NCBI GenBank assembly: GCA_037447655.1 | Contig: JBBHKE010000113.1 | Location: 21,023-85,022 of the forward strand | Source of the DNA: Zygnema cylindricum | Lineage: Eukaryota > Streptophyta > Zygnematophyceae > Zygnematales > Zygnemataceae | Direction: 5' to 3' | DNA: 64,000 bases | Shown here: positions 957-42,966 of the stretch, one piece after another | Numbering within the stretch: the stretch's first letter is position 1 | Layout of the letters: every line of letters starts with the position of its first letter | The notes under the pieces: model-generated | What the model saw: the letters and a program-made list of their open reading frames with translations, nothing else | Told to the model about the DNA's origin: nothing | The model's database searches: none | Made by a program: the position numbers and the translations under genes

Positions 957-2774
957 TTTAACTCAAAATGACTTGGAATCATCTTCTCCACCAGAAATAG
1001 GAAGTGTTATGCATGAAAGAGTTGTAGAATCTCCTCTTCCTCAAGCCGAAACTGAATTACAAGAGGAATCACATGTATCGAGGAGGAGGAACGAACCATC
1101 TATACCAGCGACAGAATTTCCAGGTGGAGTTAGGCGAAGTGCACGACTCAGGGGAGAAAGTGCAGCCTTTGCTCATTCTGCACACGTAGAAGAGCCTTTA
1201 ACATTGAAAGAAGCTTTTTCGAGTAATGAAAGGGAACATTGGGTGGAAGCCATCAATGAGGAAATGAAGTCCATCATGGAGACCCAAAGATTGGATCTGG
1301 TGGAACTTCCTCCAGGAAGAAAAGCTATTGGAAGTAAATGGGTGTTTAAATCACAATTGAACCCAGATAATACCATAGACAGGTATAAGGCTCGCTTGGT
1401 TGCTAAGGGATATAATAAAAAGGAGGGGATAGATTATGAAGAAACTTTTTCACCGGTTGTAAGGTTTCTATCTGTCCGCATCGTACTTACATTAGCTGCC
1501 ATAGAGGATTTTGACATCCACCAAATGGATGTCAAAACTGCATTTTTGAATGGTGATTTAGATGAGGTCATCTATATGAAGCAAACAGAGGGTTATGAGG
1601 AAGCAGGAAAAGAAAATCTTGTTTGCAGACTTTTAAAATCTTTGTATGGCCTAAAACAGGCCCCTAGACAGTGGAACCGAAAGTTAGATGAGTTCTTGAC
1701 AGGATTAGGATTTACTAGAATTAGCTCAGATCATTCAGTATATGTGATGTGTGGTGATAATCCTGATGAGGTGATATTCATTGCTGTGTATGTTGATGAT
1801 TTGCTGCTCATTAGTAGGAACAAAGAGGGAATTGCTAGGGTAAAACAGACTCTTAATTCAAAATTTGAAATGAAGGATTTGGGTGAGGCAAAATATATCC
1901 TTGGAATACAAGTTGAAAGAGATAGAGAAAAGAAAATAATTAGACTAACTCAAAAAGAAGCGATAGGAAACATGTTGGAAAAATTTGGCTTGGTAGATGC
2001 CAAAGGTTGTGCAACTCCTATGGAGTATAAGCAAAAACTTGAAGGAATGGAGCATGAGTTTGGAGTCATAATAGATGAGGAACTCAGTGCAGAAGAGCAA
2101 AAATTTATGTCCCAAATACCCTACAGACAAGTAGTAAGAAGTCTAATTTACTTCATGAATTGTACTAGGCCCGATATAGCTGCAGCTGTTGGTGTATTGA
2201 GCAAAAGTCTGCAAAATCCACCAAAGAGAGATTGGGAAGCTGCAAAAAGGGTTTTAAGGTATCTTGTTGGGACTAGAAATCTTTGGCTTACTTTGGGAGG
2301 GGACAAGGTTAGCATTAATACTTTGAGTGATGCTAGCTATGGTGATGTGCCTAGTAGGAAGTCTACAACTGGGTATGTCATTCAGATTGGAAATGGTACT
2401 TGTAGTTGGAGTAGTAAACTTCAAAAGGTCACGGCTCAATCTACTATGGAAGCCGAATACATGGCAGCGAGCGCAGCCTTGAAAGAGTTGTTATGGATTA
2501 AGGTATTTCTTCAAGAATAGGGTTTTACGCAACACGGGACAGAAATAATGTGGTGCGACAATCAAGCAACCATTCATGTGGCTACAAACACAAGTCACCA
2601 TTTAAGAGTAAACATATGGACATTCGGCTTCATTTGGTACGTGAGAAAGTCTTTGCAAAAGTGGTAAGACTTTGTTATTTGCCTGATGAGAAAATGGTTG
2701 CGGACATGTTGACAAAAGCCCTTCCCGCTCATAAATTGGAGTACTGCAGAAAAGCATGTGGTCTAAGTGAGTAA
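957..2774 (+). pseudogene. CopA reverse transcriptase and RNase H
   Basis: The main open stretch runs 973-2520. It holds the serine/proline linker, the copia RT core (KWVFKSQLNPDNTIDRYKAR), the palm motif AVYVDDLLLIS with the catalytic YVDD, and the RNase H start (LSDASYGDVPSRKSTTGY). A stop at 2518-2520 interrupts RNase H. The same frame continues through CDNQATIHVATNTSHH, then a one-base loss moves homology to another frame (2650-2774), which ends in the usual copia C-terminus ACGLSE. At least one nonsense mutation and one frameshift disable it. RT residues look intact, suggesting fairly recent decay. Confidence 0.9.
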
Positions 2775-2796
2775 GCATTCTAAAGCTTAAGTGGAG

Positions 2797-3487
2797 TATT
2801 GAAAAGCAAGCTTTAGTAAGCCTTAGAAATTTGAGTCTAGAACTTAGAATATTTTTGGAATACCAACTGTTCAATATTGACCAAATTTAGTGTGGATTTT
2901 TTTGTAGTATCTACACGAATTGATATCTTTAAGTTAATTAGTGTGTAAGGTCGCCAATGAATGTAGACGTGATAAGAATCACCCGGATTTTTAGGGTACA
3001 GATATTGTTAGTGGACAATTCTGGTCGAAACACTTAGATTTTTGTCAGTAGGGTGTTTGGTGAACCATGTACATACGTTTTAGATGTTTTCTAGATATTT
3101 TAGATGTTTTCTAGATCTTTTGAGTATTTAGTTCAATTAGGATTGATCAATTCAATAGAGAATGTACATTCTACACAAGAATTAAGGAAATGAGAGCACT
3201 GAGTGCAGTTTAAGGTGTTTTATGCTCTATTGTCTCTAATTTGCTTGTAGTACATGTTTGTTTAATTGAAATACCTCTTTCGTTTGGAGTTACATATCTT
3301 ACACTATAGATCTAGTCTTCTAGACATTTCTCTTTGGGTTTGCTTCTGCTAACATGTTTGATAATGGCTCAACTCCTATTGCAAGTGCTCCTATAAGCCC
3401 TAGTGCTCCACCTGCTCTTGCTGGTGCAAGTGTGACTCCTAGTGGGAGTGGATCACAATCTAGTCTTAATGCCCATGACCTACAACA
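2797..3487 (+). repeat. CopA 3' LTR
   Basis: The LTR follows a purine-rich tract (AAAGCTTAAGTGGAG) that resembles the CopC polypurine tract. It starts TATTGAAAAG, with the expected TG mutated to TA, and ends CCTACAACA, matching the CAGAACAACA end of CopC. Minus-strand gypsy RT sequence begins at 3488, which fixes the right boundary. An ATG at 3354 opens a frame that runs to the LTR end (MFDNGSTPIASAP, serine/alanine/proline-rich). It corresponds to the LTR-encoded Gag N-terminus seen in CopC. Length is about 691 bp. The 5' partner is outside the window. Confidence 0.8.
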
Positions 3488-3893
3488 CCAGCCCTGTGTC
3501 CACCAAATTCTGCACCTTTGGGATGATGAACTCTTTCTCCTTGAAGCTGAGAGGTTACTATTTCTGCCAAACGGTCGCCGTCTCGTGGGTCAGGGCAATG
3601 CGAAAACGGGTCCCCTTATAAATCCCTACATCTGTGTTAGACCAAGAGAACACCTGCCCATTCTCCTCTAAGAGCTTGGAGAGTCGGGCCTTCTGCTGTG
3701 GGTCTAGCTGTTCCCCTAAAGTCCAGTCCATCTTCCCGTGTTCCAGTGCCCCGAATTCATCTTGTGGCCGACCCCAAAGGGAGATGTCGAATTCTTGTTC
3801 TACTTGTGGATCCATCCCAAGCTCGGCTACTAAAACGCTGTTGCTAACAACTTCCCCTAAGCTGCAGTGTTTCGAACCTCTGCTCCCCCCCAC
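3488..3893 (-). pseudogene. GypA reverse transcriptase, N-terminal part
   Basis: The frame from 3893 to 3558 reads LGEVVSNSVL, then KMDWTLGEQLDPQQKAR and GQVFSWSNTDVGIYKGTRF. This is the gypsy region just upstream of the RT palm, where the pol chain contacts the template strand. A stop follows WQK. Homology resumes in another frame as FKEKEFIIPKVQNLVDTGL up to 3488, where the CopA LTR begins. The rest of RT should lie beyond CopA, off the window. The match to 28832-29200 of GypC is collinear. Stops and truncation make it a pseudogene. Confidence 0.82.
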
Positions 3894-3964
3894 TCAGGAA
3901 ACTCCTGGGTGCAGTGTTCTTTGTGATTATCATTTGTTGAATTCTTCCCTTTTTGCCTTACTCC

Positions 3965-5164
3965 CCCCCTTAAGCTGTAGAGCTGCTTGCTTGGCCAACA
4001 ACTGTGGAGCTTGAAGGTATGTTGTTCGTGACTTTCGAGAATGTAGGTTGGAGAATGCCAGAGAATGTTGCATCACCCAAGAAATTGCATTCAAATCCAT
4101 ACTTTACCAAACTACACTACACCTTTTTGAGGCTGAGACCCCTGGTGCTGTTATTGATGCCGATCAAAATCCCATTGCTTCTTCTCGTTCCTTGATGCTT
4201 GGTGCTGTCCACGTAGCGGTCTTACTGTCAAAGATCATTCATGGTGCGCCCTTCCTGTTAACATGCTTTTTACGGGAAGATACCAAGGTTGGTAAGGCCC
4301 TCCGTGGATTTGCGGGTATATTGGAAATGAAGAAGGGCGTTCGGTCGGCTGTGGTCATAGGGGTTGCCATTCGCCCTGGTCCGAGAATCTGTTAAAATGT
4401 GATGTTAGGATATGGAACCTGTGTGTTCAATAGCTGTTGGAGGACAAGAAGTAGAACCAAGTTGGTACAGTAAGCCTGAACCCGTTGGGCTTTTGACTCG
4501 ACCTGAGCTACAACAAACACTATGGGAGTCCCTAGAACCTTGGTCACTTCGTTCTACCTGTTGACTACATGTTTCTTTTTATCATCTGTGGGGTGAACAT
4601 TTTCCAAGACGTACCTTACTGGTGTATGTTCTCGAGTTCTTGTAACCCCGTTATTAGCCGAGTCATTTGAAAAAATATTAAACTACGGACATCCTGGTGT
4701 CTCTTGCCCTTTCATGCTAACGAATACCCCTGGCAAGGCCATCTAGCAATGACCAAGTCTACCTTGCCAAGTTTCTCCAAATGTAAATACGTGATGCTGC
4801 CTACATTTTGGGGAAGAGTACGGTGAGAGTTAGACATGGCAGACACCGGCAGTTGCTGTGGGTAAAGTTTTTAGAGCTTTTGCAGTCTATGCTCACTAAC
4901 TGCACGGGCGTCCAGGTCAATCTCGACTGCCAAGTACATTTCTACTTGGTATCCATCTATCACGACGGCTTTCAGATCGGAACTAATGCCGGAAAATAGC
5001 GAGAGAATCCGGAGTCCTGAGGGCAGGATATCCAGTGACACCACCTGTCGGTTGAAGTTCTTCCCTGGGTTAGGAACCATTGGGAGTTTAGGCCTGATGA
5101 ACCTTGCTATTTCGCATGATATGGCGGCAAAGCTCTTATCCACTCCTTGCCGAAGTGTGGCCAT
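3965..5164 (-). pseudogene. GypA C5 cytosine DNA methyltransferase-like domain
   Basis: Minus-strand translation shows the ordered motifs of C5-MTases. Motif I is RILSLFSGI (about 4985-5015), motif II is AVEIDLDARAVSEHRL, and motif IV is ARWPCQGYSLA with the catalytic Cys codon at 4733-4735. Motif VI is YVLENVHPTDD, reached after a frameshift near 4600. A motif VIII-like SKAQRVQAYCTNL and a motif X-like SMDLNAI follow. The enzyme family transfers a methyl group from S-adenosylmethionine to cytosine C5. Here the domain sits before RT inside a retrotransposon polyprotein. Several stops and at least one frameshift make this copy non-coding today, but the catalytic PCQ is kept. Motif reading is by eye; a profile search would settle it. 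Confidence 0.75.
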
Positions 5165-5647
5165 CTATACCAATCTACTTTGATACACTCTTTCCCATCG
5201 CTTGGAAATGGGGAAATGCTAGATGGAATTCGCGATATCGGTGGAATCTTTGAATAACTCTGAAGAAGTGAATGCAGAGTATGTTGTTCTACGACCACCG
5301 ATGCAGGTGGAGGAGCAGCAGTAGTAGTAGAAGTAGACATGATACACTCTCAGGAGCTATCAAGAATCCTACCAAAAAGCTCTTCTTAAGTGCTCACCAA
5401 TTATTATACAAGCATCCAATCCTCACAAAATTCTAACTGAATATAGAGTAACATAAACAATGACAACTCCCAAAGTTTCAGCACAATTGACTTAACAACA
5501 CTCAATATATAATACTCAGAAGTTTCCCAAAAACTGTCTGCAGTTTTACTACTTCGAAGTCTGGATGCATAATATGTTCTGAGTCCTAAGTCTTATACTT
5601 GTGTTGAACTGGCAACACCAGTGTACTTGAGAGGTACGCCAAACCAC

Positions 5648-5765
5648 CAAGCTACCACTAATTTTTCAAGCTACCACTGAGCTATCACTAAGCTACCACT
5701 GAGCTATCATTAAGCTACCACTGAGTTACCCACTAAGTTACCACTGAGTTACCCACTAAGTTGAC
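5648..5765. repeat. Short tandem repeat of AAGCTACCACTGAG type
   Basis: About seven imperfect copies of a 13-16 bp unit (aagctaccactgagctatc and variants) lie in tandem within the CopB LTR. The unit drifts toward taagttaccactgagttacc at the right end. This is local expansion inside the LTR, of unknown role. Confidence 0.75.
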
Positions 5766-5884
5766 TAGAATCATATCTATCGTATTTGCTCTATCCTGTA
5801 CAGAATCACATTAAGAATATCAGACGTTGCGTTGTCCGTACGAACCATATCAAATATAATCGTGGTTGTGTTTTCCTGTGTGTG

Positions 5885-5990
5885 TTGCAGCTTCGTTGCT
5901 GCGCTGCTCTGCTGCTGCGCTGCACTGCTGTTGCGCTGCACTGCTGTATAGCAGCAGCGCTACGCTGTTCCGCTGCTCTGAGACTCAAAG
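5885..5990. repeat. GCTGC-rich microsatellite-like tract in CopB LTR
   Basis: This is an imperfect array of GCTGCGCTGC, GCTGCTGTT and similar units. Translated fragments here are only alanine/cysteine-rich artefacts. A related CAGCG/TAGCAG array occurs in the CopF LTR at 34510-34650, so such repeats appear to be a subfamily trait. Confidence 0.75.
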
Positions 5991-6173
5991 CTTTCCAGAA
6001 GACAACACTCCCCTAAAGCTTTAGACTCAGTATACCGGCGCAGCTGCGGTGAAAATCTAGCGCAGCATCGCAGCATAACAATATAACAATTAGCAAGTCA
6101 CCCAGTCCCACTATATCTCAATGGTGGACTAATCGCAGAGTGGCAGTATAGCAGTGCAGCAATTCAACTATTC

Positions 6174-6405
6174 ACTTAATCCCACTGCGTCCCTACAATA
6201 ATTTAGCTTAGGAGCAAGAATAGCTTTAGTGAGCATATCACCAATCATTTTTGCATATGGCAAATAACATAATTTAATTACTCTAGAGAACACTTTTCTC
6301 TTACAAAGTGTAATCGTACATCCATGTGCTTGCTTTTGAAGTGATGAATCGGGTTAGAAGCAATGGCAATGGCAGCGTCGTTATCACACTAGATCACTTG
6401 TGGAC
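6174..6405 (-). pseudogene. CopB RNase H C-terminus
   Basis: Minus-strand translation gives GPQVI, a stop in place of the expected Trp, then CDNDAAIAIASNP, KSKHMDVRLHFVRE, LPYAKMIGDMLTKAILAPKL and the usual copia end CRDAVGLSE. A frame slip in the middle separates the blocks. This is the distal part of the RNase H domain that removes tRNA and genomic RNA during reverse transcription. It continues from the RT fragment at 11976 once CopC is excised. It is non-functional. Confidence 0.8.
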
Positions 6406-6410
6406 CAACC
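6406..6410. other. CopC target-site duplication, left copy
   Basis: CAACC immediately left of the CopC LTR repeats exactly at 11976-11980 on the other side. A 5-bp duplication is what copia integrases make. Confidence 0.85.
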
Positions 6411-7145
6411 TGTTGTTCTGAGACAAGTGTTGGTACTGAAGATGAAGAAGATGCAGCAGTAGTCATCGTAGAACAAATCAAGAGAGGAAGCTTCCACAAA
6501 TACCGATGGCTGAACAGCAACTTTGACAGACTATAACTTTCAGAAAAACGCTGCAAACGTCCTGAAAATTTGCCACAATGTAGATAACATACAAAGGAAC
6601 ACACACACAAAATTTCAATCAATTCCGCTTACAAATCTGTGAGATATGTAGAAATGAAATTACATAAAACTGAGTGTACAGTTTTCATATCATTTGTTCC
6701 TAAAAATCAAATTCACTAAGTCCTACTTTTATACACCGAAACTACACTAAGCTGTACGGAGGCATTCCAGCCGTACATCTAACATTCTATCACACATATT
6801 TACACCGAAGTTCAGACAACGTAAAGTGATAATGATCTAGTCACGCCTCGTCACTATTTGTTGGCGGCTGTCAGCGGTCCGATTAGAGGATTTGGCACCG
6901 TAGAATTGACTTCACGAAGTCCAGTGGTCCTGCCGAATTTCCGTACGTCCACGGAGGACATACTCACGCATTCTCCCAAGTGACGACACGTGTCCCAAGT
7001 GTGAATGAACCGTGAACTCCCAACTTCACTGTCACACTAATTTCGGTAAGTACTGAACCGAACTCAACCAAAAATAGCTTAAGTCCTGAACAGCTCTCTC
7101 TCACAGCTGAGGCATAAAGAGGACTAAAGCTTTCTAAAAACAACA
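6411..7145 (-). repeat. CopC 3' LTR
   Basis: It starts right after the polypurine tract at 7146 and ends at the CAACC duplication at 6406-6410. It is nearly identical to 11238-11975, apart from a GGC triplet and a few substitutions. It retains the ATG and codons for the serine-rich Gag N-terminus (MTTAASSSSSVPTLVSEQQ), here without a downstream gag. It lacks the tRNA-like and GTAC-hairpin modules seen in CopD/E/G LTRs. Confidence 0.92.
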
Positions 7146-7160
7146 CTCCCCTAAAGCTTT
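7146..7160 (-). other. CopC polypurine tract
   Basis: In element orientation AAAGCTTTAGGGGAG directly precedes the 3' LTR. It is the RNase H-resistant primer site for plus-strand DNA. CopB has the same sequence at 6008-6022. Confidence 0.8.
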
Positions 7161-7168
7161 AGACTCTG

Positions 7169-10100
7169 CTAGTCACTCAGTCCACAAGCCTCTCTACAGA
7201 ACTTCAATTTGGGAGCAGGTAAGGGTTTTGTCATCATATCAGCCACCATTTGCTCATCCGGTAAATAACTCAACTTCAAGACTTTTCCCATCACCTTTTC
7301 TCTTACAAAGTGTAGCTTGATATCAATGTGCTTACTCTTAAAGTGATGACTGGGATTAGATGCAATAGCGATTGCTGCCTGATTATCACACCACACTATA
7401 TGTGGTCCAGATTGCATAAAGAGAAGCTCTTGGAGAAGAGACTTTACCCAAAGTAACTCTTTAACTGCCGAGCTGGCAGCCATGTACTCAGCCTCCATGG
7501 TAGACTGAGCCGTTACCTTCTGAAGTTTGCTGCTCCAGCAGCAAGTTCCACTTCCGATCTTCAAAATGTATCCGGTGGTGGAGCGTCGGCTCGGCATATC
7601 TCCGTAGCTCGCATCGCTCCATGTATGAATTTTGACTTCCTCTCCACCGAGAGAGAGTCTAAGATTTTGAGTTCCTGCAAGATAACGAAGAACTCTCTTT
7701 GCTGCCTCATAGTCTGATTTCTTTGGATTCTGAAGGCTTCGGCTTAAGGCTCCAACCGCTGCTGCGATGTCGGGACGAGTACAATTCATGAAATAAATGA
7801 GGCTTCCGACAATCTGCCTGTAAGGAATGGAGGACATAGAATCTGCCTCCCCTGAATCTAAGAAACCATCAACCAAAACACCACCATCCATTTTCGTGCC
7901 TTCCAATTTCTGCCTGAATTCCATAGGAGTGGCACTCCCCTTTGCGTCCGACATGCCAAACTTTTCTAACATGTTCTTGATTGCTTCCTTTTGAGTTAAA
8001 TAAATAATTTTCTGTTTCCTGTCTCTTTCTACTTGAATTCCTAGAATATACTTAGCCTCACCCAAGTCTTTCATTTCAAACCGGGAATTCAAAGCTGATT
8101 TTATTTTATTAATCTCATTGATGGATTTGCTAATTAGTAGCAAATCATCTACATAAACTGCCACATAAATCACTCCATCATCACCTTGCATTACATAGAC
8201 TGAGTGATCTGAACTGATCCTGGTAAAGCCTAGATTGGTTAAAAACTCATCTAATTTCAGGTTCCATTGCCTCGGAGCCTGTTTCAGACCATAAAGGGAC
8301 TTCAACAGTTTACAGACCAGATTTTCTTTCCCTTTTTCTGCATACATCTCTGGCTGCTTCATATAAATTACTTCCTCCAAATCACCATGCAAGAAAGTTG
8401 TCTTAACATCCATCTGATGCAATTCCATATCTTCTATTGCAGCAAGAGATAGCAAAACTCTAACAGTAGGAAAGCGAACCACAGGAGAGAAGGTCTCTTC
8501 ATAGTCAATTCCCTCCTTTTGGCTAAATCCCTTAGCAACCAGTCTAGCTTTATATCTCTCAATTGTATTATCAGGATTCAATTTTAATTTGAAGACCCAC
8601 TTACAACCGATAGCTTTCCTGTTCGGTGGGAGCTCCACAAGTTCCCAAGTTTGGGCTTCCATAATTGACTTTATCTCTTCATTTGCAGCCGAGATCCAAT
8701 GATCCTTTTCAGGAACGGAAAAAGCTTCATGAATAGTAAGCGGCTCCCCTGTGCTTGCAGAAAAAGCACTCTCAACTCGGTCGCCTCGAAGGCGGCTACT
8801 TTGCCTTCTTCCCCCCGGAAAATCTGACGCGGGAACGGTTGGTTCCTTAGATTGCCGCACAAGGCGTGTATTCGAAGGAGCATCGACAGAACGAGCAGCT
8901 CCAGAAAGAGTATTAGACGGCCCAGAGGCATTTGGGAGAGAGGTAGAAGAAGTAGAAGAGGATGGAGTAAAAGGTACCTGCTCAAGAATGATATACTCTT
9001 GTATTTTCTCTTTCCTTTCAGCTGCATCCATGCTAAAAACGTCAACAGATTGACTTTCTTCTTTAATCTGAATATTCCTGGCTGTTTGAAGACATCCTCT
9101 CTGAGGATTATACACTCTATAACCTGCAGATTCATCATCATAGCCTAAAAAGACGCCAGGTACAGATTTTGGACTAAGCTTCCAATTAGGAAGATTATCC
9201 AAGATAAAACATTTGCTACCAAAAACTCTAAAATGACTAACATTTGGCTTTTTGCCTGTCCAAACTTCATAAGGTGTCTTACCCCTAACAGCCCGGGTTT
9301 CCACTCTATTTCTGATATAAGAAGCACAATGAAAAGCTTCCCCCCAAAACTTTGGATCCACACCTTTATCGGCCATCATAGATCGAGCACATTCAGTCAA
9401 AGTCCGATTAAGTCTCTCGGCAACACCATTTTGTTCCGGTGTGTACGGAGCAGTAAATTCACGAGAGATGCCATTCTCTTTCAAAAAATCAGCAAATGCA
9501 TGAGATACATACTCTCCACCATTATCCGTTCGCAAAGCAAGAATAGATTTGCCGTGAAGTTTCTCCGCCCAGATTTTGTAGTGCTTAAAGTGAGTGAAGA
9601 CTTCTCCCTTCTCCTTCATGAAGTATAGGCGACTATATCGGGAGTAATCGTCTGTAAAGGTGACAAAGAAGCGGTTGCCACCAAGAGAGGGAACTTTGGA
9701 AGGGCCGAAGACATCAGAGTGAATAATACCAAGGAGATCTGTGGCTCGATGATCAGAAATTTGTGGTAGAGGAAGCTTGTGAAGCTTTCCGAGAGCACAA
9801 CCATCACAAACATGGGACTCTTTTTGACCAAGCTTGACTCCCTCTATCATATTATGGTTTATCATCTTAGTAAGTCTCTCATGGTGCACATGACCAAGCC
9901 TTTTATGCCACAAAACATTATCACATAGGACACTGGAGTACGCAAAATCAATTTTATTAGCCAGGTCCATGCGGTACAAAAAGTTTGGGCCTCTAGTTCC
10001 TACTAGAGCTACTCTTCCATTCTTGCTCACTATTTTCTTGCCATTTTTCTGGAGAACCTCAAAGCCTTTGCTTTCAGCTACAGAAGTAGAAAACAGATTT

Positions 10101-11293
10101 TTCTTGAACTTTGGAACAAAGAAGACATCATACAAAGTTCTCTTAAAAACCTTTCCATCTATCACACAATCGAGATCTATGTTTCCTTTGGCATTTGATT
10201 CAACAGCATAGCCACAAGCATAAAAGATCTGACGTAAAGGAATAGAAGACATCTCCTTAAACCAAGACTTGTTCCAACACATGTGTGAAGAGCTGCCGGA
10301 ATCCATTATCCATCCGAGGTCCTTTTCTCCTTCCATCATGTCGAGTTTGGCGAGAGCAAAGAACTCTTTGTCATCAGTTTTTGGAAAACTGATCACACCA
10401 GGTGTCGTTTCCTCGGTCTTTTTCTTCTCCAATTCCGTATCCTCCGCTGAAAATGCAACAATTTTATTCGGAGGTTTTTGGGAAATGGGAGGTCCGCGGT
10501 GTCTCCATCCTTTCCGAAAGGTACCTGTTTCAAGAGCTTTTATATACAAAGGACAAGCTCTGAAGGAGTGACCATCAGTATAGCAATAAACACATTTCTC
10601 AAACTGAGGATTAAACTGATTCCCTTGATATCTATTTTCCCTCTGAAACTGAGCCGTAAATGCTACAGCTGGTTTTCCAAATCCTAAAACTGTCTGAGTA
10701 GCCTCTTCTGCCAAGATAAACTCTATAGCTGTTTGCAAATTCCAAAGAGGTTTAGACAATTTTTTCATTTCATCTGAGGCTCCTTTATATTCATTAAGAA
10801 GCCCCTTTAGGAGAATCATGGCCTGATGATAAGGGGAGAAAGTCCCCCCAGAACATGCATTTTCTGACAGTAACATTCGAAACCGATTAGTGTATTCCAC
10901 CATGCTACCGCCTGTGTACTTATACTCATAGATTTGACCAGCAGTTATAATCTCATGCTGGTCACTAGCTTTAACATAAGAAGATTTCAATGCATCCCAC
11001 AAATCTGATGCCTTTGCAACATTAATATATGTCATATGCAATTCTTTTGATATCATAAGCTTTACTAAATGCAAAGCCTGGTCATTTTTCTGATCAAAAC
11101 TGGCATCAGATTCTGCCAATGATCCATTTAACACATCAATAAGTTTCACTTGCTTGAAGTAAGACTTAACCAAATCTGCCCAATACAGATATTCACGTCC
11201 ATCAAAGACCGGAATTCGTGAAGGCGGGCCCGTGACCTGTTGTTCTGAGACAAGTGTTGGTACTGAAGATGAAGAAGATGCAGCAGTAGTCAT
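7169..11293 (-). CDS. CopC Gag-Pol polyprotein (intact)
   Basis: This is a 1374-residue frame without stops. The chosen ATG (11293-11291) lies in the 5' LTR; an upstream in-frame ATG at 11437 exists but would add LTR promoter/leader sequence. Order: Gag of the UBN2/DUF4219 type (about 20-230), zinc knuckle CVYCYTDGHSFRAC (about 234-247), and protease with DSG at about 331. GAG-pre-integrase with HKRLGHVHHERL and CDGCALGK (about 452-505) follows. The integrase has D527, D590 and E626 in HSDVFGP, RTDNGGEY and QNGVAERLNR. RT has YVDD near 1047, and RNase H ends in REACGLSD. All catalytic residues are present, so it should encode a full set for copying and integration. One frame for Gag and Pol is normal for plant copia. 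Confidence 0.93.
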   Translation of the reverse strand: MTTAASSSSSVPTLVSEQQVTGPPSRIPVFDGREYLYWADLVKSYFKQVKLIDVLNGSLAESDASFDQKNDQALHLVKLMISKELHMTYINVAKASDLWDALKSSYVKASDQHEIITAGQIYEYKYTGGSMVEYTNRFRMLLSENACSGGTFSPYHQAMILLKGLLNEYKGASDEMKKLSKPLWNLQTAIEFILAEEATQTVLGFGKPAVAFTAQFQRENRYQGNQFNPQFEKCVYCYTDGHSFRACPLYIKALETGTFRKGWRHRGPPISQKPPNKIVAFSAEDTELEKKKTEETTPGVISFPKTDDKEFFALAKLDMMEGEKDLGWIMDSGSSSHMCWNKSWFKEMSSIPLRQIFYACGYAVESNAKGNIDLDCVIDGKVFKRTLYDVFFVPKFKKNLFSTSVAESKGFEVLQKNGKKIVSKNGRVALVGTRGPNFLYRMDLANKIDFAYSSVLCDNVLWHKRLGHVHHERLTKMINHNMIEGVKLGQKESHVCDGCALGKLHKLPLPQISDHRATDLLGIIHSDVFGPSKVPSLGGNRFFVTFTDDYSRYSRLYFMKEKGEVFTHFKHYKIWAEKLHGKSILALRTDNGGEYVSHAFADFLKENGISREFTAPYTPEQNGVAERLNRTLTECARSMMADKGVDPKFWGEAFHCASYIRNRVETRAVRGKTPYEVWTGKKPNVSHFRVFGSKCFILDNLPNWKLSPKSVPGVFLGYDDESAGYRVYNPQRGCLQTARNIQIKEESQSVDVFSMDAAERKEKIQEYIILEQVPFTPSSSTSSTSLPNASGPSNTLSGAARSVDAPSNTRLVRQSKEPTVPASDFPGGRRQSSRLRGDRVESAFSASTGEPLTIHEAFSVPEKDHWISAANEEIKSIMEAQTWELVELPPNRKAIGCKWVFKLKLNPDNTIERYKARLVAKGFSQKEGIDYEETFSPVVRFPTVRVLLSLAAIEDMELHQMDVKTTFLHGDLEEVIYMKQPEMYAEKGKENLVCKLLKSLYGLKQAPRQWNLKLDEFLTNLGFTRISSDHSVYVMQGDDGVIYVAVYVDDLLLISKSINEINKIKSALNSRFEMKDLGEAKYILGIQVERDRKQKIIYLTQKEAIKNMLEKFGMSDAKGSATPMEFRQKLEGTKMDGGVLVDGFLDSGEADSMSSIPYRQIVGSLIYFMNCTRPDIAAAVGALSRSLQNPKKSDYEAAKRVLRYLAGTQNLRLSLGGEEVKIHTWSDASYGDMPSRRSTTGYILKIGSGTCCWSSKLQKVTAQSTMEAEYMAASSAVKELLWVKSLLQELLFMQSGPHIVWCDNQAAIAIASNPSHHFKSKHIDIKLHFVREKVMGKVLKLSYLPDEQMVADMMTKPLPAPKLKFCREACGLSD
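11223..11237 (-). other. CopC primer-binding site
   Basis: In element orientation the 15 bases after the LTR read GGTCACGGGCCCGCC. CopD, CopE, CopG and CopH have GGTTATGGGCCCACC or close variants at the same place, which match the complement of the initiator tRNA-Met anticodon arm as I remember it. CopC differs at three positions. It may be a drifted site, or it may use another tRNA. The site is translated as Val-Thr-Gly-Pro within Gag. Confidence 0.6.
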
Positions 11294-11975
11294 CGTAGAA
11301 CAAATCAAGAGAGGAAGCTTCCACAAATACCGATGGCTGAACAGCAACTTTGACAGACTATAACTTTCAGAAAAATGCTCCAAACGTCCTGAAAATTTGC
11401 CACAATGTAGATAACATACAAAGGAACACACACACAAAATTTCAATTATTTCCGTTTACAAATCTGTGAGATATGTAGAAATGAAATTACATAAAACTGA
11501 GTGTACAGTTTTCATATCATTTGTTCCTAAAAATCAAATTCACTAAGTCCTGCTTTTATACACCGAAACTACACTAAGCTGTACGGAGGCATTCCAGCCG
11601 TACATCTAACATTCTATCACACATATTTACACCGAAGTTTAGACAACGTAAAGTGATAATGATCTAGTCACGCCTCGTCACTATTTGTTGGCGGCGGCTG
11701 TCAGCGGTCCGATTAGAGGATTTGGCACTGTAGAATTGACTTCACGAAGTCCAGTGGTCCTGCCGAATTTCCGTACGTCCACGGAGGACATACTCACGCA
11801 TTCTCCCAAGTGACGACACGTGTCCCAAGTGTGAATGAACCGTGAACTCCCAACTTCACTGTCACACTAATTTCGGTAAGTACTGAACCGAACTCAACCA
11901 AAAATAGCTTAAGTCCTGAACAGCTCTCTCTCACAGCTGAGGCATAAAGAGGACTAAAGCTTTCTAAAAACAACA
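11238..11975 (-). repeat. CopC 5' LTR
   Basis: This 738-bp LTR has TG...CA ends and is flanked on the right by the CAACC duplication at 11976-11980. It contains the promoter for CopC and the Gag start codon. The last 56 bases encode residues 1-18 and part of codon 19. The partner is at 6411-7145. Confidence 0.92.
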
Positions 11976-13555
11976 CAACCTGCATGTATCCTAGTTCTTC
12001 CAACATGGATTTTACCCATAAGAGTTTTTTGAGGGCCGAGCTTGCTGCCATATATTCTAACTCCATTGTCGATTGTGCTGTAACCTTTTGAAGTTTGTTG
12101 CTCTAGCAGCAAGTACCATTCCCAATTTGTAGAACGAATGCCGTGGTGGATTTCGGGCTTGGCATGTCGCCATAGCTTGCATCACTCCACGTTTGCAGCT
12201 TCACTTCTCCTCTGCCTAGAGTGAGTTTGAGGTCTTTAGTTCCTGCCAAATATCTTAAGACTCTCCTTGCTGCATCAAGATCAGATTTTCTCGGATTTTT
12301 AAGACTCCTACTCAGTACCCCGACTGTTGCAGCGATGTCAGGACGGGTACAGTTCATGAAATATATTAAGCTTCCCACTATGTGTCTATAGGGTATTATT
12401 CTCATTGGATCATTCTCCCCTAACTCTAAATACTTGCTTACAATGACACCTGGTTCTGTCTCTACTCCCTCTAATTTTTGCCGAAACTCTTTTGGAGTTA
12501 AACATCCTTTTACCCCCCGCATTCCGTACTCATCTAACATGTTTCCAATAGCCTCTTTTTCAATCAATTTTATTATTTTTTTATTTTTGTCCCTCTTTAC
12601 CAAAATTCCCAAAATATATTTTGCCTCACCGAGGTCTTTCATCTCGAACCGTGAATTTAGAGCAGTTTTGATTTTGTTAATTTAAGACATTGATTTGCTA
12701 ATTAATAGTAAATCATCTACATACACTGTTATATACACTATCCCATTTTCACCTTTTAGAACGTAGACAGAGTGATCACTACTTATCCTTTGAAATTCTA
12801 GGCTAGTCAAGAATTCATCAAGCTTCAGATTCCACTGTCTGGGGGCCTGTTTTAGGGTGTACAGAGATTTTAGCAGCTTGCATACTAAGTGCTCTTTTGC
12901 TGGTTCCACATACTCTTCAGGCTGCTACATGTAAATGGTCTCTTATAGTTCTCTGTGCAAAAAGGCCGTCTTTACATCCATCTGATGTATTTCCATATCT
13001 TTTATAGCAGCTAAGGAAGGCAAAATCCTAACTGTCAGAAATCTTAGAACCGGAGAAAATGCTTTTTCAAAATTGATTCCTTCCTTTTAATTATACCGCT
13101 TTGCCACAAGTCTGACCTTATAACGTTTAATGGTGTTGTTGGGATTTAACTTCACCTTGAATACCCATTTGTTGCCGATCGCTTATCGGTCCGGAAGAAG
13201 GTTCACAAGCTCCCATGTTTGAGCCTCCATGATGGACTTCATTTCGTCGTTTGCTGCCTCGATCTAGTGATTCCGTTCTGGTGATGAGAAGGCCTCGTGA
13301 ATGGTCAAAGGCTCCCCTGAGGCTGTCGAGTAGGCAAAGTGAGAACTTGCTTGCAGGCGGCTGCTGGATCTTCTTCCCCTTGGAAATTCAGAGGCTGAGA
13401 TCGTCGGATGCCGCGCATTACGCTGATTGCACTGGTTGCGATCTTTGTGGATTGATCGCTGGTGGTCTGGTTGGAACTGAACTTGTTGAGGAACTTGGAG
13501 AGAGTTTGACTCCGGAGTCACTACCGGAGAATGTAGTATCTGTGGGACAATTTCT
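11976..13555 (-). pseudogene. CopB reverse transcriptase / RNase H fragment
   Basis: The minus strand encodes, in pieces, the pre-RT linker (EFPRGRRSSSRLQ, about 13264-13555), RT, and RNase H start. RT shows NLKLDEFLTSLEFQRISSDH and TVYVDDLLLISKS (12682-12909). RNase H shows TWSDASYGDMPSPKSTTAF (12103-12642) and EYMAASSALKKLLWVKSMLEEL. Stops near 12660, 12930, 13090 and 13265 and shifts separate the blocks. The fragment joins 6174-6405 after removal of CopC. On the right it is cut by the CopD LTR. It once copied element RNA but is now inactive. Confidence 0.85.
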
Positions 13556-23699: not shown

Positions 23700-23790
23700 T
23701 TCCCCCCCTAACCGGTGAAAAAGGATTTAGGTCTCGGGAATCGGGCTGATATCCCCATTTCCTTTTCTTCCTCTGCAGAATTGGTTAAAT
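23700..23790 (-). other. Gypsy 3' untranslated motif shared with GypC
   Basis: On the minus strand GGGGATATCAGCCCG, then CCGAGACC and AAATCC, match the region before the GypC 3' LTR (32085-32125: GGGATATCAGCCC, CCGAGACCCCAAACCC). It identifies the minus-strand unit here as the same gypsy lineage, reading right to left. The LTR that should follow is absent. Confidence 0.6.
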
Positions 23791-25871
23791 GAGAAGAGAA
23801 AGGCCAAGTTGGGCTGACAAACTGAGCTGGCGAGACGACTCCCGTATCCTCTTCCTCGGGATCGGAACCGTGTCTCCTCTTCTAGAAGGTGAGGCCCCCT
23901 GAGGTGTGGATCCACCTCCCACAGAGGAAGTACCGGCGCCAGAAAATATGGTTGGAGGAAGGGCGTTTTCCACTACTCCCCTATATCCAGAAGAATATTG
24001 TGACACTCACACAACGGTTGCCACTAATGGAATGTGGAGACGAGGCTTGTTCACACGCTTTTGGGGGATTTCAGGTGGCGGAGACGGCGAATAAGATGGA
24101 GACGGAGACGGAAACGGCAGATCCCTTGTGGGGAAAGGTGTCAGTCTCCTTTTCGCCTCCGGAAGGTCTCGAGAGGTGGAGTACCAGAGCTGGAGGAAAG
24201 GGAGCATCGGTGAGGAGGTGAATAGACGGGTACGTCGTATTTGTAGGGTAACACAGGCGGTCCAGGCAACCCACGGACAGCTGTTGTAGGAGAAACAAAT
24301 GGCAAAGGAGAGGGATCGGGACAGTCCCGGGGCTCTGTGGGGTGTTCTGGAGAGTGAGATGGAAAAAACGGAGGAGCAAAAGGTTGGAGCTCCGAGGATT
24401 ATCCGAAAGAAGTGGGAGGAGGTGTTGGCGCTCTCAAGAGGATGTGGATTCTTTCGTCAGGTCATAACTCCACTAAAGCCTCCACGGCAGTAGATACCTC
24501 CACCGAGACAAAAGTAGTTTCTCCTCGATGAGCCGAAGCGGTCCCAAAAGGTAAATATGCACCAAAACCCTCTGCATTAGGCCCTTGTCTCCCTCCCCTT
24601 TCTGCAGAAGAGGAGGCTCTTGGCTTGGCTCTGAGGACGGACCGCCGGGCTGAGTGCTTGAGAGGGGCGAGGTCACCACACCCGGTGCTTCGGAATGCGG
24701 CCCTGTCTTTAGTGTGGGAGGAATTATCCCGCTGAGAATCCCACTGGTCCTACGCCGAGCTTCCCTAATAAGTGTCAATTCCTGTTCCCAAGCCTTCCGT
24801 CTCTCTTCCTCTAAGGTCTCCCAATCTACCGTGGCGGGTTCGGCCCCCGCCGTAGCCTGTCCTTGGGATTTCAGAACCTCCACTAGTTCCTTGGCTTTTT
24901 CCACTACTTTGGTAAGATCCGCTATCTCGGTGCCCGGAAATTCGGGATCATTAGGTCTGGTCCGCCACCATCCCTCGGACAAATCTGCTGATCCCGTGCC
25001 CGGAACCTCGGGATTAATAGGTTTGGATCTCCAGAGCCCTTCGACAGGGCGGACACGAGCAGTGTTGGGAACAAGTCTCTCGGTCGAGGGTGGAATTGGA
25101 GTCGGGGACGTCTCCTCCTTCGAGAAAGGTGCGAATCTCCCCTTGCTGTCACGGTGGTCAAACTTCTTTCCCCTCACTGAATCTGGTGCGCCCCTCTTGA
25201 TACCCCCTTCTCCTTCACGAGGCCTAGAAGAGGTACCTTCCCGGGTGGGTCGGCTGGCTGCACTGTCTTGAGAGGAAGATCGGGGAGGGCGAGAATAGGG
25301 AGCCCTCTGGGACCGATCTGGCACTGATTGTGAAGAGATGCTCTCCGAAGAGCTGCTCAAAATCTCCACCACCCCTCCGACGGGTCTAACCACTCTGACT
25401 CGATCTGTCCGCGCCACTCTCTGTACCAACTCCTTCTTCACCTTGAGCTCATGGAGGTCGTGAAGGGCAAGGAGTTCCTTACGCCCTGGTCGACGGGTGT
25501 CCGTCAAAACAGCGGGGTCAATCTGGATCTCGGCTCGTGGAATCTTGGATCGGGTATGTAGCCCGACCTCGGGAAGGGGGCCCACATAGGGCTCCCTTTG
25601 TGCTTGCCTCTTTGGCCGAGCCCTGGGAAACTCCTTATTCCTCTCCTCAGCATGGACCCTGGCGGCTTCTGCCAAAGAAAGGGTAATGTTCGGGAGTCAG
25701 ACTAGGAGGTTGAGGAGGAGGAGAACCACCAGACGGTTCCTTGGCTGGCGATCTAAAAACAGTCTCTATGGGCTCCGACTCCTCGGACCTCAAAGATTCC
25801 CCTTCCGGCATGGGCCTCTCCGGTCGACCTTGCTCTCCGGATCCGTTATCCGGAGTCTCGCCTCCCCCCAT
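23785..25871 (-). pseudogene. GypB: long Pro/Ser/charged gag-like ORF, no pol
   Basis: A frame from 25871 (MGGGETPDNGSGEQGRPERP) passes by a small shift near 25660 into a 400-residue frame (25675-24473). That frame is rich in Arg, Glu, Ser and Pro, with LHDLHELKVKKELVQRVART and a helical stretch near KVVEKAKELVEVLKSQGQA. Proline-rich pieces continue to 23785. No zinc knuckle, protease, RT or integrase is seen before the shared 3' untranslated motif. Position and composition suggest a gag of a non-autonomous gypsy derivative, but I do not recognise a family. Another possibility is a cellular gene fragment. Confidence 0.5.
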
Positions 25872-26024
25872 GATGACAAAGGTGTAGGGGGGAAGAGTGG
25901 TGAATAGAAGAAAAGCTCGCTTCCAAAAAGAGGGCTTCTAAAGTGAAAGCTCCTATCCCTTCTAATCCGAGAAGACAGGTGGCTTTTTAGTACTGTGCTT
26001 TGTCGACGAGAAGTCTATTGCATT

Positions 26025-26131
26025 TGTTCCCTCAAAACCCACTGTCCTGATCCAGGGGGTTTTCAGCTTACTCCAAAAAAGTAACTCCAAAGCAAAGAGA
26101 ACTCCAGATGTAGACACAAATGCACAACCAC

Positions 26132-26164
<33 letters not shown>

Positions 26165-27190: not shown

Positions 27191-27575
27191 TATCATCAAA
27201 GCACTAGAAATTGAATTCTCAGATGACGCAGGCCAGAGGGTGAAAATTACACTCCCCTTTTTAGTGGTTGAAGGGACTCAATTTGAAATTCTGTTAGGAA
27301 TAGCAACTTGGACCTGGCTAAATATGAGTTTAAGCGTGTGGAAAAAACAAAGTACCGTTCGGGACCCCGGAAATCTCGAAAGAGCCAAAGTGGTGGTTCC
27401 TTTGGATTTATGGAATAGGGGGAAAACAAATGTCGCGGTGTCTGGATGTTACCCGGTATATACTACATTATCTCTGACGTCACTGTTTGGCAATTCCACA
27501 AATATAGCGGAAAAATTCTAGCAATTCCTCATTTCCAAGCGGTGGGAAGAGGAATACGTTAATAGATTATTACAG
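27191..27575 (+). pseudogene. GypC retropepsin C-terminal half
   Basis: The frame from 27191 reads IKALEIEFSDDAGQRVKI, then LPFLVVEGTQFEILLGIATW, the flap-to-C-terminal part of a retropepsin (LLG motif), and continues to a stop after NIAEKF at 27519. Aspartic proteases of this type release the domains of the polyprotein. The catalytic D[ST]G half is missing because the left LTR begins exactly upstream. An extension (EEEYVNRLLQ) leads into the methyltransferase region. Confidence 0.6.
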
Positions 27576-28700
27576 GTGGGAAAACTCCGGAGGGGAGTGG
27601 ATCAAACTTTCGCCACTCTATTATTAAAGCAAGTTGTTTCTACACACCAGTCTGATGCTTCCAAAACAAAATCCGATAACGAGGAGTTCGATCGACAAGT
27701 GGTGTCCTATGCAGTCCTTCATTCCGGACTGCGTATTTTATGTATCTTTTTGGGGATTAGTTCCGATATGGAAGCGGTTTTGAAGACATGATATATGGTG
27801 GAATTATACATAGCCGTGGAGATATAACCCGACGCACGGGTTGTCAGCGAACACGGCCTCCACCAACTTCACCACTTATATCCTCAACAGCTTCTAGTAT
27901 CAGCCTTCTCCAAAGCTCATCGGAGTCTTCCCCAAAATGTAGAAAACATCATGGCGACCCATCTGGCCAGTTTCAGAAGATTGGATTTGGTGTCGGCACG
28001 TTGGCCTTTTCAGGGATACTCCTTAGCAGGACATGAAAAAGGGCATCAAGACCGCAGAAGTGGAACCTTTTACCGGTTGATCAAATTAATCTTGTGGCTT
28101 CAACAGCTCCAGGACAAATCAGTGGGTTACGTTTTGGAAAATGTCCACCCGGGAGATGATCAACGAAAACAGGTTGCGACAGCTGGAATCACGTAACCCG
28201 GATTTTAGGAGCTCCCTTGGTTTTCGACGCCGCCCAAATGGGATCCCGGGCACAGAGAGTTACGGCATATTGGACCAATATGATCCCGCTTCCGGTCCTC
28301 CGACAACTGTTGGAGAAGGAAATCCCTGACCCGCAAAATTCTGTGGAGCAAATACTTGTGGATGGTAGAATGGCCACCGTGTGACCCAACCGAACCTCTC
28401 CCCATTCTTTCGGTGCAACAAACCGGGATTCCCACGGAAAGCACTCTCGACTTTGGTCTCTTTTCCTTATAGTCACGCTTATCGGAAAGGAGCTGCAGGA
28501 ATGACTTTTGACAGCAAGGCCGGACTTTGGACAACACCGACGATTGTCGAACTGGAAAGAAACAATGGGATTTCATAAAGGCACCACAGCAGCACCAAGT
28601 ATGTCAGACCTTCAGAGGTGCAGCCTTATTGGGCAAAGGATGGATTTGAATTCAATCACATAGGTGCTCAAGCATGCACTCGCCTTCTCTTGCCACAAGT
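27576..28700 (+). pseudogene. GypC C5 cytosine DNA methyltransferase-like domain
   Basis: One frame (27576-28196, two internal stops near 27789 and 27817) carries motif I-like RILCIFLGISSD, motif II-like AVEI, motif IV-like ARWPFQGYSLAGHEKG and motif VI YVLENVHPGDD. After a shift a second frame carries LGAPLVFDAAQMGSRAQRV (motif VIII), ETMGFHKGTTAAPS, and GQRMDLNSI (motif X). Spacing and order are those of C5-MTases, and no other family has this set. The catalytic Cys of PCQ is Phe here (codon 28008-28010). In GypA the same codon encodes Cys, so this is a loss. The domain would methylate cytosine, perhaps element cDNA. This copy is dead. Confidence 0.78.
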
Positions 28701-28831
28701 CCCCGGGATCAAGGGCTATTTACCTTCAAGCTCCTCAGTTTTTAGCGATGTAGGTAACTTTGCAGCTTGAGGGGGGGAGAGAAAGGAGAAGAAAAGGAAA
28801 AAATCACATTTGACCGCCGCAGGTTTTCCTA

Positions 28832-29700
28832 TTGGGGGGGGGCGGCGGCTCAGATGGCGACAGCTTAGCGGAAGTTGTCAACAGTAGTGTTCTAGCCAGA
28901 GGGGTAGGGGCAGATCCACCGGTAGGGTTTGAATTCAACATTAACCTCTGGGGTAGACCCCAGGAAGCTTGGGCTGCCGTTGAGCCGGGGAAAATGGATT
29001 GGACCCTAGGGGAGCAGTTGGACCCTCAACAGAAGGCGCGACTTTCCGAATTGTTGGCCAAAAACAAAGAGGTGTTCTCATGGTCCAAAACTGATGTCGG
29101 TATTTACAAAGGAACACCTTTCCGAACCAATTTGATCGAGGAGACGACTACTGTTTTGCAGAAGCAGTATCCTTTAGCTTCAAAGAGAAAGAATTCAATG
29201 CGACGAAAGTCTAGACTTTGGTGGAGGCCGGATTGGTTTAGGACAGCACAGGACTTCATGGGTTCGCTTCCCCGACAGTTCTCCCTCCAAAGAAGGACTC
29301 GTCCAGGAAGCTTGTAGATTTCCAGATGTGTGGAGATTATCGCATGCTAAACACTACCACCATCTCTGACCGGTATCTAATGCTGACCCTGGAAGAGATA
29401 TTCGACTCTCTTGCTAGTGCCACTATCTACTCCACTCTAGACATGAAGAATGATTTACACCAGATTGCCATGGAACCGAAGCACAGGGAGAGAACCGTAT
29501 TTTGGATTAGTTCCAGACTTTATGAATGGATCTACATGCCATTCGGGCTCAAGAACGCCCCGGCCAAATTCCAACGGGCAATGGACGAAGCTCTCCTAGG
29601 AATCGATAATGCCCGGTGCTATATTGATGACGTTATCATCTTCTCCAAGACTTTTGAGGAACATCTGGAGCATGTCCAGATCGTTCTCCGGGCACTCTAA
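28832..29700 (+). pseudogene. GypC reverse transcriptase
   Basis: The N-terminal block (28832-29317) matches GypA (LGEQLDPQQKAR, VFSWSKTDVGIYKGTPF). A shift leads to the palm frame (29326-29700) with MCGDYRMLNTTTISDRY, STLDMKNDLHQIAM, MPFGLKNAPAKFQRAMDEA, and CYIDDVIIFSKT carrying the catalytic YIDD. It ends at a stop where the homology continues. This is a typical Ty3/gypsy RT. Catalytic residues persist, but at least one shift and one stop break it. Confidence 0.88.
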
Positions 29701-30420
29701 GCAGCGGGCTTGAAATGTCACCCATGCAAAGTTAATTTTGGTGTACATAAAATCATTTACCTTGGACATGAGGTGACTCCAAGGACAGTGGGTCCCCACA
29801 TGGTCAAGGTGGCAGCCCATGACGCTCTTCCCCCACCGCAGGACATCTTGACCCTTCGCACCTTTCTGGGTCTGGCTAACTACTATCGACGGTTTATCCT
29901 CGAGTTCAGCAGTCACGCTCAGCACCTCAACCAACTATTGCGGAAGGACCAAGAATGGCAGTGGGCCGAAGAACAACACATCGCCTTCCAGTTCTTGAAC
30001 GATGCTCTAAAGCAACACCCAGTGCTCCCTATGCTTGATCACCAGAGGCCTTTCCTCCTTTACACAAATTATAGCAGGTTTGGATAGGGAGCGGTTTTGG
30101 CTCAATTCGATGATGCGAGAGCTGAATATGTGGTGGCCTACGCCAGTCAGAGCAAGAACAGGGCAGAGGGAAATCATAGTAGTTACCACGGAGAGCTACT
30201 CGCAGCGGTTAGGGCAATCTAGCATTTCTGGCTTTATTTGTACGGGGTCCATTTCACTCTGATCACGGATCACCAACCCCTAAAATGGATCATGGAAAAT
30301 GGCAAGTTAACTGGCAAACTCGCCAGATGGGTTTTTATCCTGCAGGAATATAATTTCGACATTGTTCACCGGGCAGGGGAAATCCTTGGCTATAACGACG
30401 GACTTAGCTAGAATCCCGAC
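29701..30420 (+). pseudogene. GypC RT connection and RNase H
   Basis: The frame continues after a stop as AAGLKCHPCKVNFGVHKI, YLGHEVTPRTVGPH, and ANYYRRFILEFSSHAQHLNQ, the gypsy RT thumb. RNase H follows: LYTNYSRFG, a stop, GAVLAQFDDARAEYVVAYAS, HGELLAAVRAI, TDHQPLKWIM and LARWVFILQEYNFDIVHRAG. The first RNase H Asp appears replaced (TNYS for TDAS). Stops at 30087, 30220 and near 30410 inactivate it. Confidence 0.86.
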
Positions 30421-31774
30421 CCTCCACCATAGATTCCACTAAGGCTCGGCATGATGAGGACCCGAAAATAAGTCGTGACTCATTCGAGCATCTTCCGCCT
30501 TCCTCTGGCTTCTCCAATCTGGGGGGGAACTGCCAACTTTCTCGGCCGATGTGGAGGGGAAGGCGCCCCTATGGGCAGGACAAAAGGATATCTGGAACGA
30601 TCCGGATTCCCTCCAATCTATCCAGTAGGGGGCACATATTCCCCACTTGACTGGAATTCAATTATCTCGAGTGCAGACTCGAATGGCGGCGTACAATTAG
30701 GACGGAGGAGTTCTCCTCTGGAAATGGTCACATGGCACCAGGAAAGTGGTTCCTCCTCCCTCACACCGAGAAACTATGATTTCCAATCTCCATCAGCAAT
30801 GTCGGACACTTCGGGGCAGAAGCGGACCACGTCCATGGTTACGGGCTCTTATTGGTGGCACGGGTTGCGGACCCAAGTCAACCGAATTGTGCAAACTTGC
30901 TCCTCATGCGGCCGAGTCAAGGCAGCTTTTAACAAAAAGGGCGGGAGTGAGCTTCATTTGCTTCCTATCCGAGGAATATTTTATTGGTGGTCTTTCGATC
31001 TTTTGGGACCTCTTCCAACCAGCAGGCGGGGGAACCGCTTCGTGGTGGTCATGATAGAATATTTTTCCAAGTGGATCGAGTTGGTAGTTTTTTACGGAAG
31101 GAGTCATAGGCAATTGCATATGCCTGCTTGCAAAGGGTTTTAGCCCAATTCAGAGTGCCTGCAGAAGTTCTAACGGACCAAGGCTCCAAATTTTCTAGAG
31201 AATTTTCCAACCTTTTGGAAAAATGCCTTGTCGACCATCGGCTGACCAACCGTGACCACCCGCAAGCCGACGGTTTGGCCGAAAGGTGCGTACAAATAGT
31301 GAAGCGGTCACTACGAAAATATGCAATTGAAGAAGATTTGGGGGAGTGGGACAGGAGGGTGTCGTGGATTGCTATATGTTACACATTCAGTAGGCATGCT
31401 TCGCTCCACTCCTACAGTCCTTACTTCATTTTATTTGGACGGCATCCCATCCTTCTCGGGGCTGCATCGGCCCAAGCGGTGGTCCTCCTAGAGATGGATG
31501 ACAAGGGAACACTCGCAAAACTGATCGCCGACAAAGCCAAGATAATTCACCGAGAGATGCCTCTCGCCATGAGAAATTTGCAAGCGGCTCAACATCGAGA
31601 TCGGTTGTGGTATTCTCAGCGCCAGAGCTAGAATTATGTGCCACGTGAGCGATGATTTATGCCGGGGGACTTTGTATATCAGATGCAATAGAAGAAGGAC
31701 ACGCTGGATATTTCTGTCGTGCGAGTAATTTTGAAAGTTGTCAAGGTTTACAATAAAGGAGTTTTTACATTGGA
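30421..31774 (+). pseudogene. GypC integrase
   Basis: The zinc-binding region is broken, but VNRIVQTCSSCGRVKAA gives its CxxC. The rve core is split: SFDLLGPLPTSRRGNRF with the first Asp, then after a shift VLTDQGSKFSREF and HPQADGLAERCVQIVKRSL, giving D and E. FSRHASLHSYSPYFILFGRHP is the usual gypsy integrase C-terminal part. Homology runs on as DTLDISVVRVILKVVKV and KDGRRITDNRINVAPCHL. It would integrate element DNA. Frameshifts and stops make it inactive. Confidence 0.84.
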
Positions 31775-32047
31775 GTGAAAGGATGGTCGAAGAATTACAG
31801 ACAATCGGATCAATGTGGCCCCTTGCCATCTTCGAGACTGGAGGACCAACCCAATTTTCACATAACTTACTTTGCAGATCCTCCTTGCTGTTCATCATTT
31901 TGGAATCAGTTCTCCCAGCTGCTTGACTTATTGGTCTGCAATCAGTGTGGTCAGTGTTGGCATTGCGCCTGTTTCCCATCCTCTTGGGAGCCACGCTCTC
32001 TACCCTACAGCACATGGTTCTGTGGGAACTGCGAATGGGGCGGGTAA
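31775..32047 (+). pseudogene. PHD-like zinc finger at the end of GypC pol
   Basis: Following the integrase C-terminus, this frame contains CC, then LLVCNQCGQCWHCACF, a gap with LP, and TWFCGNCEWGG. The spacing C-x2-C, H-x2-C, about 20 residues, and W-x-C-x2-C resembles the second half of a PHD finger. The first C-x2-C is reduced to a CC pair. PHD fingers usually read histone H3 tails, so a role in targeting integration to marked chromatin is plausible. The frame differs from the integrase frame, and the copy is decayed. Confidence 0.5.
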
Positions 32048-32134
32048 TTTTATGTCTTAGTCACGGTTGACTAAGGGGGGGGAAATTGGGATATCAGCCC
32101 ACTACCGAGACCCCAAACCCTTTCCGATTGCACT

Positions 32135-42953: not shown

Positions 42954-42966
42954 AAAATAAGGGGAG

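Follow-up and report, generated by a model that had tools for sequence, protein, structure and literature searches.

The 64,000-nucleotide stretch of Zygnema cylindricum DNA that we analysed (hereafter the window) carries on its minus strand a dead fragment which, judged by its sequence, is a decayed member of a multi-copy Gypsy-type LTR retrotransposon family with a DNA methyltransferase (DNMT) of the Dnmt3 class in Pol. Taking the reading as a whole, we consider it probable that this is a decayed Gypsy-family fragment, and that the family produces by readthrough a Pol fusion whose DNMT methylates cDNA or other DNA. This rare kind of element is already published for Klebsormidium, and the window copy is a further, dead member; what is apparently new is the TAG-CAATTC junction, the PHD finger, and the relatives in Marchantia, Closterium and Mesostigma. 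The family is of interest in that elements normally silenced by cytosine methylation appear to retain a methyltransferase of their own under selection. The fragment (copy 1) and a second member of the family in the window (copy 2) comprise the following features.

3487..5281, minus strand: copy 1, a DNMT-bearing Gypsy fragment, dead (78% DNA identity over 1816 columns to genomic copy C1374, L009 6249-8062)
3487..3893, minus strand: spacer and N-terminal Gypsy reverse transcriptase (RT) part of copy 1 (tblastn, C1374 Pol to residue 584)
4074..5020, minus strand: DNMT domain of copy 1, motifs I-X, in two frames (motifs, profile, protein and PDB matches)
5219..5221, minus strand: TAG of copy 1, context TAG CAT TTC
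27192..32090, plus strand: copy 2, dead, with protease tail, DNMT, RT, RNase H, integrase and PHD remnant (tblastn and blastn with the C1374 and C544 copies; translation)
27519..27521, plus strand: TAG of copy 2, context TAG CAA TTC
27723..28660, plus strand: DNMT domain of copy 2, with motif IV reading WPFQ (Cys to Phe)
29218..30414, plus strand: RT and RNase H of copy 2 (tblastn with L011 Pol)
30814..31679, plus strand: integrase of copy 2 (tblastn)
31838..32044, plus strand: stretch of copy 2 resembling the final, PHD-finger part of the integrase frame (tblastn, query the L010 integrase-PHD frame)

Copy 1 runs through a protease tail, a stop, the DNMT, a spacer and the start of the RT, and the C1374 match to window positions 5281-3487 spans it from protease tail to RT, making the fragment wider than the 3965-5164 given in a preliminary description of this DNA. 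The six motifs which that description had placed in order on the minus strand were all found there, though spread over two frames: LSLFSGI (5005), VEIDLDAR (4927) and WPCQGYS (4741), the last holding the catalytic Cys, in one, and LENV (4607), KAQRVQAY (4493) and MDLNAI (4100) in the other. While the catalytic Cys is retained as had been claimed, the second Arg of motif VIII is replaced by Gln (L009 reads AHRVR there), and the DNMT is broken by eight in-frame stops between 5218 and 4074 and by one frame change; as the copy is dead, its retained Cys is uninformative on present function. The first half of this DNMT fell slightly below the cut-off of the Pfam DNA_methylase profile (PF00145; 20.2 bits against 22, E-value 4.4e-4), whereas genomic relatives scored well above it (49.4 and 44.5 bits). 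Read through its stops as X, copy 1 matched two public DNMT proteins (2e-38 and 2e-32, among 5.8 billion sequences), and a PDB search found HhaI, DNMT3A and DRM2 with E-values from 1e-5 to 0.03, HhaI standing about level with DNMT3A when this single broken sequence was used. Pfam gave no match of its own for the spacer/RT block at 3487..3893, which is also present in copy 2 (66%). Chance resemblance of the copy 1 motifs was ruled out by copy 2, C1374, and the public-protein and genomic matches, because copy 2 keeps the motif order and C1374, at the identity given above, has an open frame. At gathering thresholds Rfam matched nothing in the whole window.

The DNMT of copy 2 has its motifs in the same order as copy 1 and, in addition to the Cys to Phe change, is also without the second Arg of motif VIII. 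This copy has Gag remnants beside it, along with a pair of A-type repeats that are 83.6% alike (the repeat types are described below), at 23753-25627 (minus), 26012-27190 and 32253-33410; as these lie inverted to the Pol block relative to C1374, copy 2 is rearranged. Elsewhere in the window, 45696-46777 holds gag-protease remnants of lineage B (see below) in two pieces on opposite strands. Two copia elements, one at 6408-11976 (minus; open frame of 1428 aa, flanking direct repeats 98.5% alike) and one at 37568-44015 (plus; 1339 aa, 98.8%), are young insertions based on their long open frames and closely similar direct repeats.

Intact copies were sought in the genome (352,776,454 bases, 2689 contigs) with the public DNMT relative P0002 as query, and of at least 89 DNMT matches scored from 1578 first-look candidates, 37 had no internal stop and 52 had stops, with surrounding open frames of up to 2395 aa. 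Thirty-one of the 37 stop-free matches were fetched at length and belong to lineages A (18), B (10) and C (3). PF00145 gave 123 scored places from 782 candidates in the genome, host DNMT genes and element copies counted together, and 12 stretches in viral contigs searched with P0002 fit a pattern, with none confirmed. The best preserved copy, C1344 (L012), encodes CCHC, protease, DNMT, RT, RNase H, integrase and PHD finger in one frame, the PHD finger scoring 43.9 bits against a Pfam cut-off of 24 (that of L010 was below this cut-off). C1374 (L009) has a protease frame ending in TAG followed by a frame of 1520 aa that encodes DNMT, RT, RNase H and integrase and closes with a PHD-finger match under the Pfam cut-off; several stops lie between its gag and protease frames. 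In C1920, a zinc-knuckle-like motif (by eye) and a protease region share a frame of 582 aa that likewise ends at the TAG. Alongside DNA_methylase, Pfam identified RVT_1, RNase H, Integrase_H2C2, rve and PHD in the relatives, their protease and CCHC matches being under the respective cut-offs, and the PR-RT-RH-IN order of Ty3/Gypsy elements with a DDE integrase (rve) was found in L009-L012 (by Pfam, with the protease below cut-off). The proposal that a Gypsy element encodes a C5 methyltransferase of its own ahead of RT is thereby supported by profile matches and by genomic relatives, the DNMT lying within a Pol frame in one open frame of 1520 aa and one of 2395 aa.

The element boundaries agree with this placement. 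C1344 is laid out A-coding-B-A-B, where its A copies are 100% identical over 931 bases, and its ends read TGTC...GACA with a 4-bp duplication, TTGG (by eye); C1374 has the same A-B layout with extra sequence in between, these two being the copies, among those examined, in which the layout was resolved. The DNMT thus sits inside the element in both repeat-resolved relatives, a point on which the preliminary description would have failed had it lain outside, and a host gene adjoining the element was ruled out because the DNMT is in frame with RT (and with protease in C1344) and between the repeats. The inner B-A joint of C1344 (L012:390-1807) reads GACA-GC-TGTC, resembling the junction of an LTR-LTR circle and so hinting that these split-repeat Gypsy elements pass through a circular intermediate. 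Another copy, L022 (C1915; lineage B, minus 1634-7873), has end repeats 99.7% alike over 360 bases and a frame interrupted by in-frame TAA and TGA codons; it is young yet apparently broken, or has another mode of expression.

A profile built from 13 family cores and searched against PDB ranked DNMT3A first (7.7e-27), followed by DNMT3C and DNMT3B, with DRM (1e-12), HhaI (3e-9) and DNMT2 (1.3e-6) at lower ranks. For the predicted fold of the public relative P0041 (pLDDT 89.6), all 50 of the 50 listed PDB matches were DNMT3A, B or C structures. Animal DNMT3A aligns with the family at motifs I, IV, VI and VIII and over a C-terminal ExER..GF..RxxLLG block, and resembles it in modelled fold; it differs in having the PCN typical of the Dnmt3 class where the family, which sits in a retrotransposon Pol, has PCQ. 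The catalytic Cys of motif IV is present in 30 of 31 genomic and 34 of 35 public cores, directly followed by Gln in 29 and 33 of these sets, respectively, and among the genomic cores the Glu of motif VI is found in 31/31 and the two Arg of motif VIII in 31/31 and 30/31. Based on the profile and predicted-fold rankings, the family DNMT is a putative Dnmt3-class enzyme with an unusual motif IV (PCQ), and on the same rankings capture of a bacterial Dcm-like enzyme is less likely. We regard it as distinctly unlikely that the enzyme acts on RNA, in the manner of DNMT2, or on viral or competitor nucleic acids instead of on the element's own DNA: a defence role has been proposed for retrotransposon-encoded methylases (PMC6338049), whereas our profile favours DNMT3 over DNMT2 by the E-values above and the modelled fold appears to agree.

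Pairwise comparison of copies with both domains gave a median dN/dS of 0.175 for the DNMT and 0.144 for the RT (17 usable of 136 pairs, i.e., with dS of 0.05-1.5 in both), values that are biased low because copies were chosen for stop-free DNMT matches, and that come from non-independent pairs with L004, L005 and L007 (matches with stops) excluded. By lineage, the DNMT median was 0.194 in A (60 of 153 pairs usable) and 0.237 in B (12 of 45), and the two usable pairs of three in C gave 0.13 and 0.14. These values show the DNMT to be under purifying selection of about the strength seen for RT. We sought CpG depletion in four DNMT-bearing Gypsy copies (L009, L011, L013, L015) and saw none, their CpG observed/expected ratios being 0.67-0.89, with 0.745 for the whole window and 0.51 and 0.48 for the copia elements (7169-11455 and 38934-42953); CpG is thus not scarce in the DNMT elements, and the marked footprint expected of CG self-methylation is absent, which counts mildly against a strong CG effect. 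The DNMT might be passive freight, captured and persisting without benefit to the element, as both window copies are decayed, 52 of the 89 scored matches have stops and the CpG footprint was not seen; we nevertheless consider this very unlikely, based on a DNMT dN/dS about equal to that of RT in the same pairs and on catalytic residues retained across nearly all 66 cores, which come from deep lineages.

At the junction of protease and DNMT, the protease frame of lineages A and C closes with TAG, followed by CAA TTC C, and the same frame resumes into the DNMT. Masking the site and locating it through its flanks made it readable in 18 copies; with the reference L030 added, TAG was found in 19 of 19 readable copies (L032 and L039 were unreadable) and TAG CAA TTC in 18, the exception, L018, reading TAG TAA TTC. 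The DNMT cores of lineages A and C are 45-59% identical to each other. The codon after CAATTC is CCT, CCG or CCA. A further alignment comprised 16 copies selected by exact match to TAGCAATTC, so that invariance of the site itself holds by construction and only the flanks are informative; in these, an invariant third position is seen in 0 of 20 codons before the site and in 3 of 21 after it. A rule known for viral readthrough is UAG-CARYYA, with which the TAG-CAATTC context agrees at five of six bases. Folding downstream of the TAG in two sequences gave z-scores of 0.06 (nothing) and -1.76 (a weak excess of structure). The conserved TAG-CAATTC likely points to programmed readthrough, as far as sequence conservation can indicate. 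The ten lineage B copies have a frame before the DNMT that does not start at such a TAG site, and L011 and L015 read uninterrupted from the protease region into the DNMT with no stop.

We think it unlikely that there is no readthrough, with gag-protease and DNMT-Pol arising as separate products through internal initiation or splicing, or with TAG serving as a sense codon. An ATG lies 19 codons past the TAG in 6 of the 16 aligned copies, as separate initiation would have it, but the other 10 have no in-frame ATG within 24 codons; moreover, CAA and TTC retain their third bases in 18 of 19 copies whereas the following CCN varies. A changed genetic code is unlikely because the open frames of 2395 and 1520 aa have no in-frame TAG. 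Under programmed readthrough in lineages A and C, few ribosomes would pass the TAG, so that DNMT, RT, RNase H and integrase would be made as a single scarce Pol fusion. This fusion would be packaged together with the element RNA, and the DNMT could then methylate freshly made cDNA, or some other DNA, ahead of or during integration, and the PHD finger might assist the integrase in its choice of chromatin. We infer from this that the element may mark its own DNA by methylation, which might let it hide, be tolerated or interfere with silencing. The likely recoding signal would fix how much enzyme is made, and the integrase bears a histone-reading finger. More tentatively, and with some doubt, we speculate that an ancient streptophyte lineage makes its DNMT only in the UAG-readthrough Pol fusion, such that a 5mC writer, RT, integrase and PHD reader would be co-packaged and the element, on integrating, would both write and read the state of its own chromatin. 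The 37 or more stop-free copies of this genome, which fall into two deep lineages, together with the likely recoding signal and the finger, open the question of why a transposon would methylate DNA to direct testing.

Protein searches identified relatives labelled Marchantia polymorpha, Closterium sp. NIES-54 and Mesostigma viride, as well as many without a host label; several carry RT, or integrase and PHD, in the same protein, and no match bore the label K. nitens. Relatives under these three names suggest that the association is old and occurs widely in streptophytes. Our tree, rooted at the midpoint only, contains 25 of the 31 genomic copies (six near-identical to a kept row, dS ≤ 0.02, being excluded), 35 of 46 public proteins (11 with partial cores being excluded, including Closterium P0038, Mesostigma P0045, and Marchantia P0017 and P0022) and two window composites. 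Copy 1 grouped with lineage A copies (99/93) and copy 2 with other lineage A copies (100/98), while two Marchantia rows sit in a separate clade. Lineages A and C grouped with four public proteins, leaving lineage B outside (99/95), although the exact placement of lineage B is uncertain because of a long-branch warning from the tree tool.

Among known systems, a 2025 paper reports DNMT3 members in retrotransposons of streptophytes and dinoflagellates, naming Copia and DIRS (PMC12344493). Our literature search, which covered titles and abstract openings but neither supplements nor most subscription papers, found no description of Gypsy-DNMT elements in Marchantia, Closterium or Zygnema, and within that same scope no mention of a PHD finger, or of readthrough of a stop, for elements of this type. 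The predicted Marchantia protein Mp_4g09160 (P0006, 1278 aa), one of several such proteins, has a DNMT of the same family, a CCHC-type label and, by eye, a protease-like motif; it differs in being an annotated protein without a listed RT domain, and its DNMT is 45% identical. As described in the published text, SymbioDIRS-Dnmt3 of Symbiodinium shares with our family a retroelement DNMT of Dnmt3 class and A-coding-B-A-B repeats, and SymbioLINE-Dnmt a DNMT encoded by a retroelement, but these have a tyrosine recombinase or a LINE endonuclease, respectively, where the family here has a DDE integrase (rve) (PMC5890265). The closest counterpart is KnitGypsy-Dnmt3 of Klebsormidium nitens (de Mendoza et al. 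2018), for which the same text describes Gypsy domains, an intronless Dnmt3-related DNMT in the Pol frame, DIRS-like repeats, purifying selection and several copies (PMC5890265). Its DNMT had no activity in yeast, a result its authors regard as inconclusive, and the words PHD and readthrough are absent from the main text (PMC5890265). It seems improbable that the window element stems from a capture independent of the Klebsormidium one: the family branches are very deep and our tree is without K. nitens sequences, but DNMT class, Pol location and the unusual A-B repeat layout are all as in the published KnitGypsy text (PMC5890265). Based on this fit, in a comparison with the published description, common descent with the Klebsormidium element is likely.
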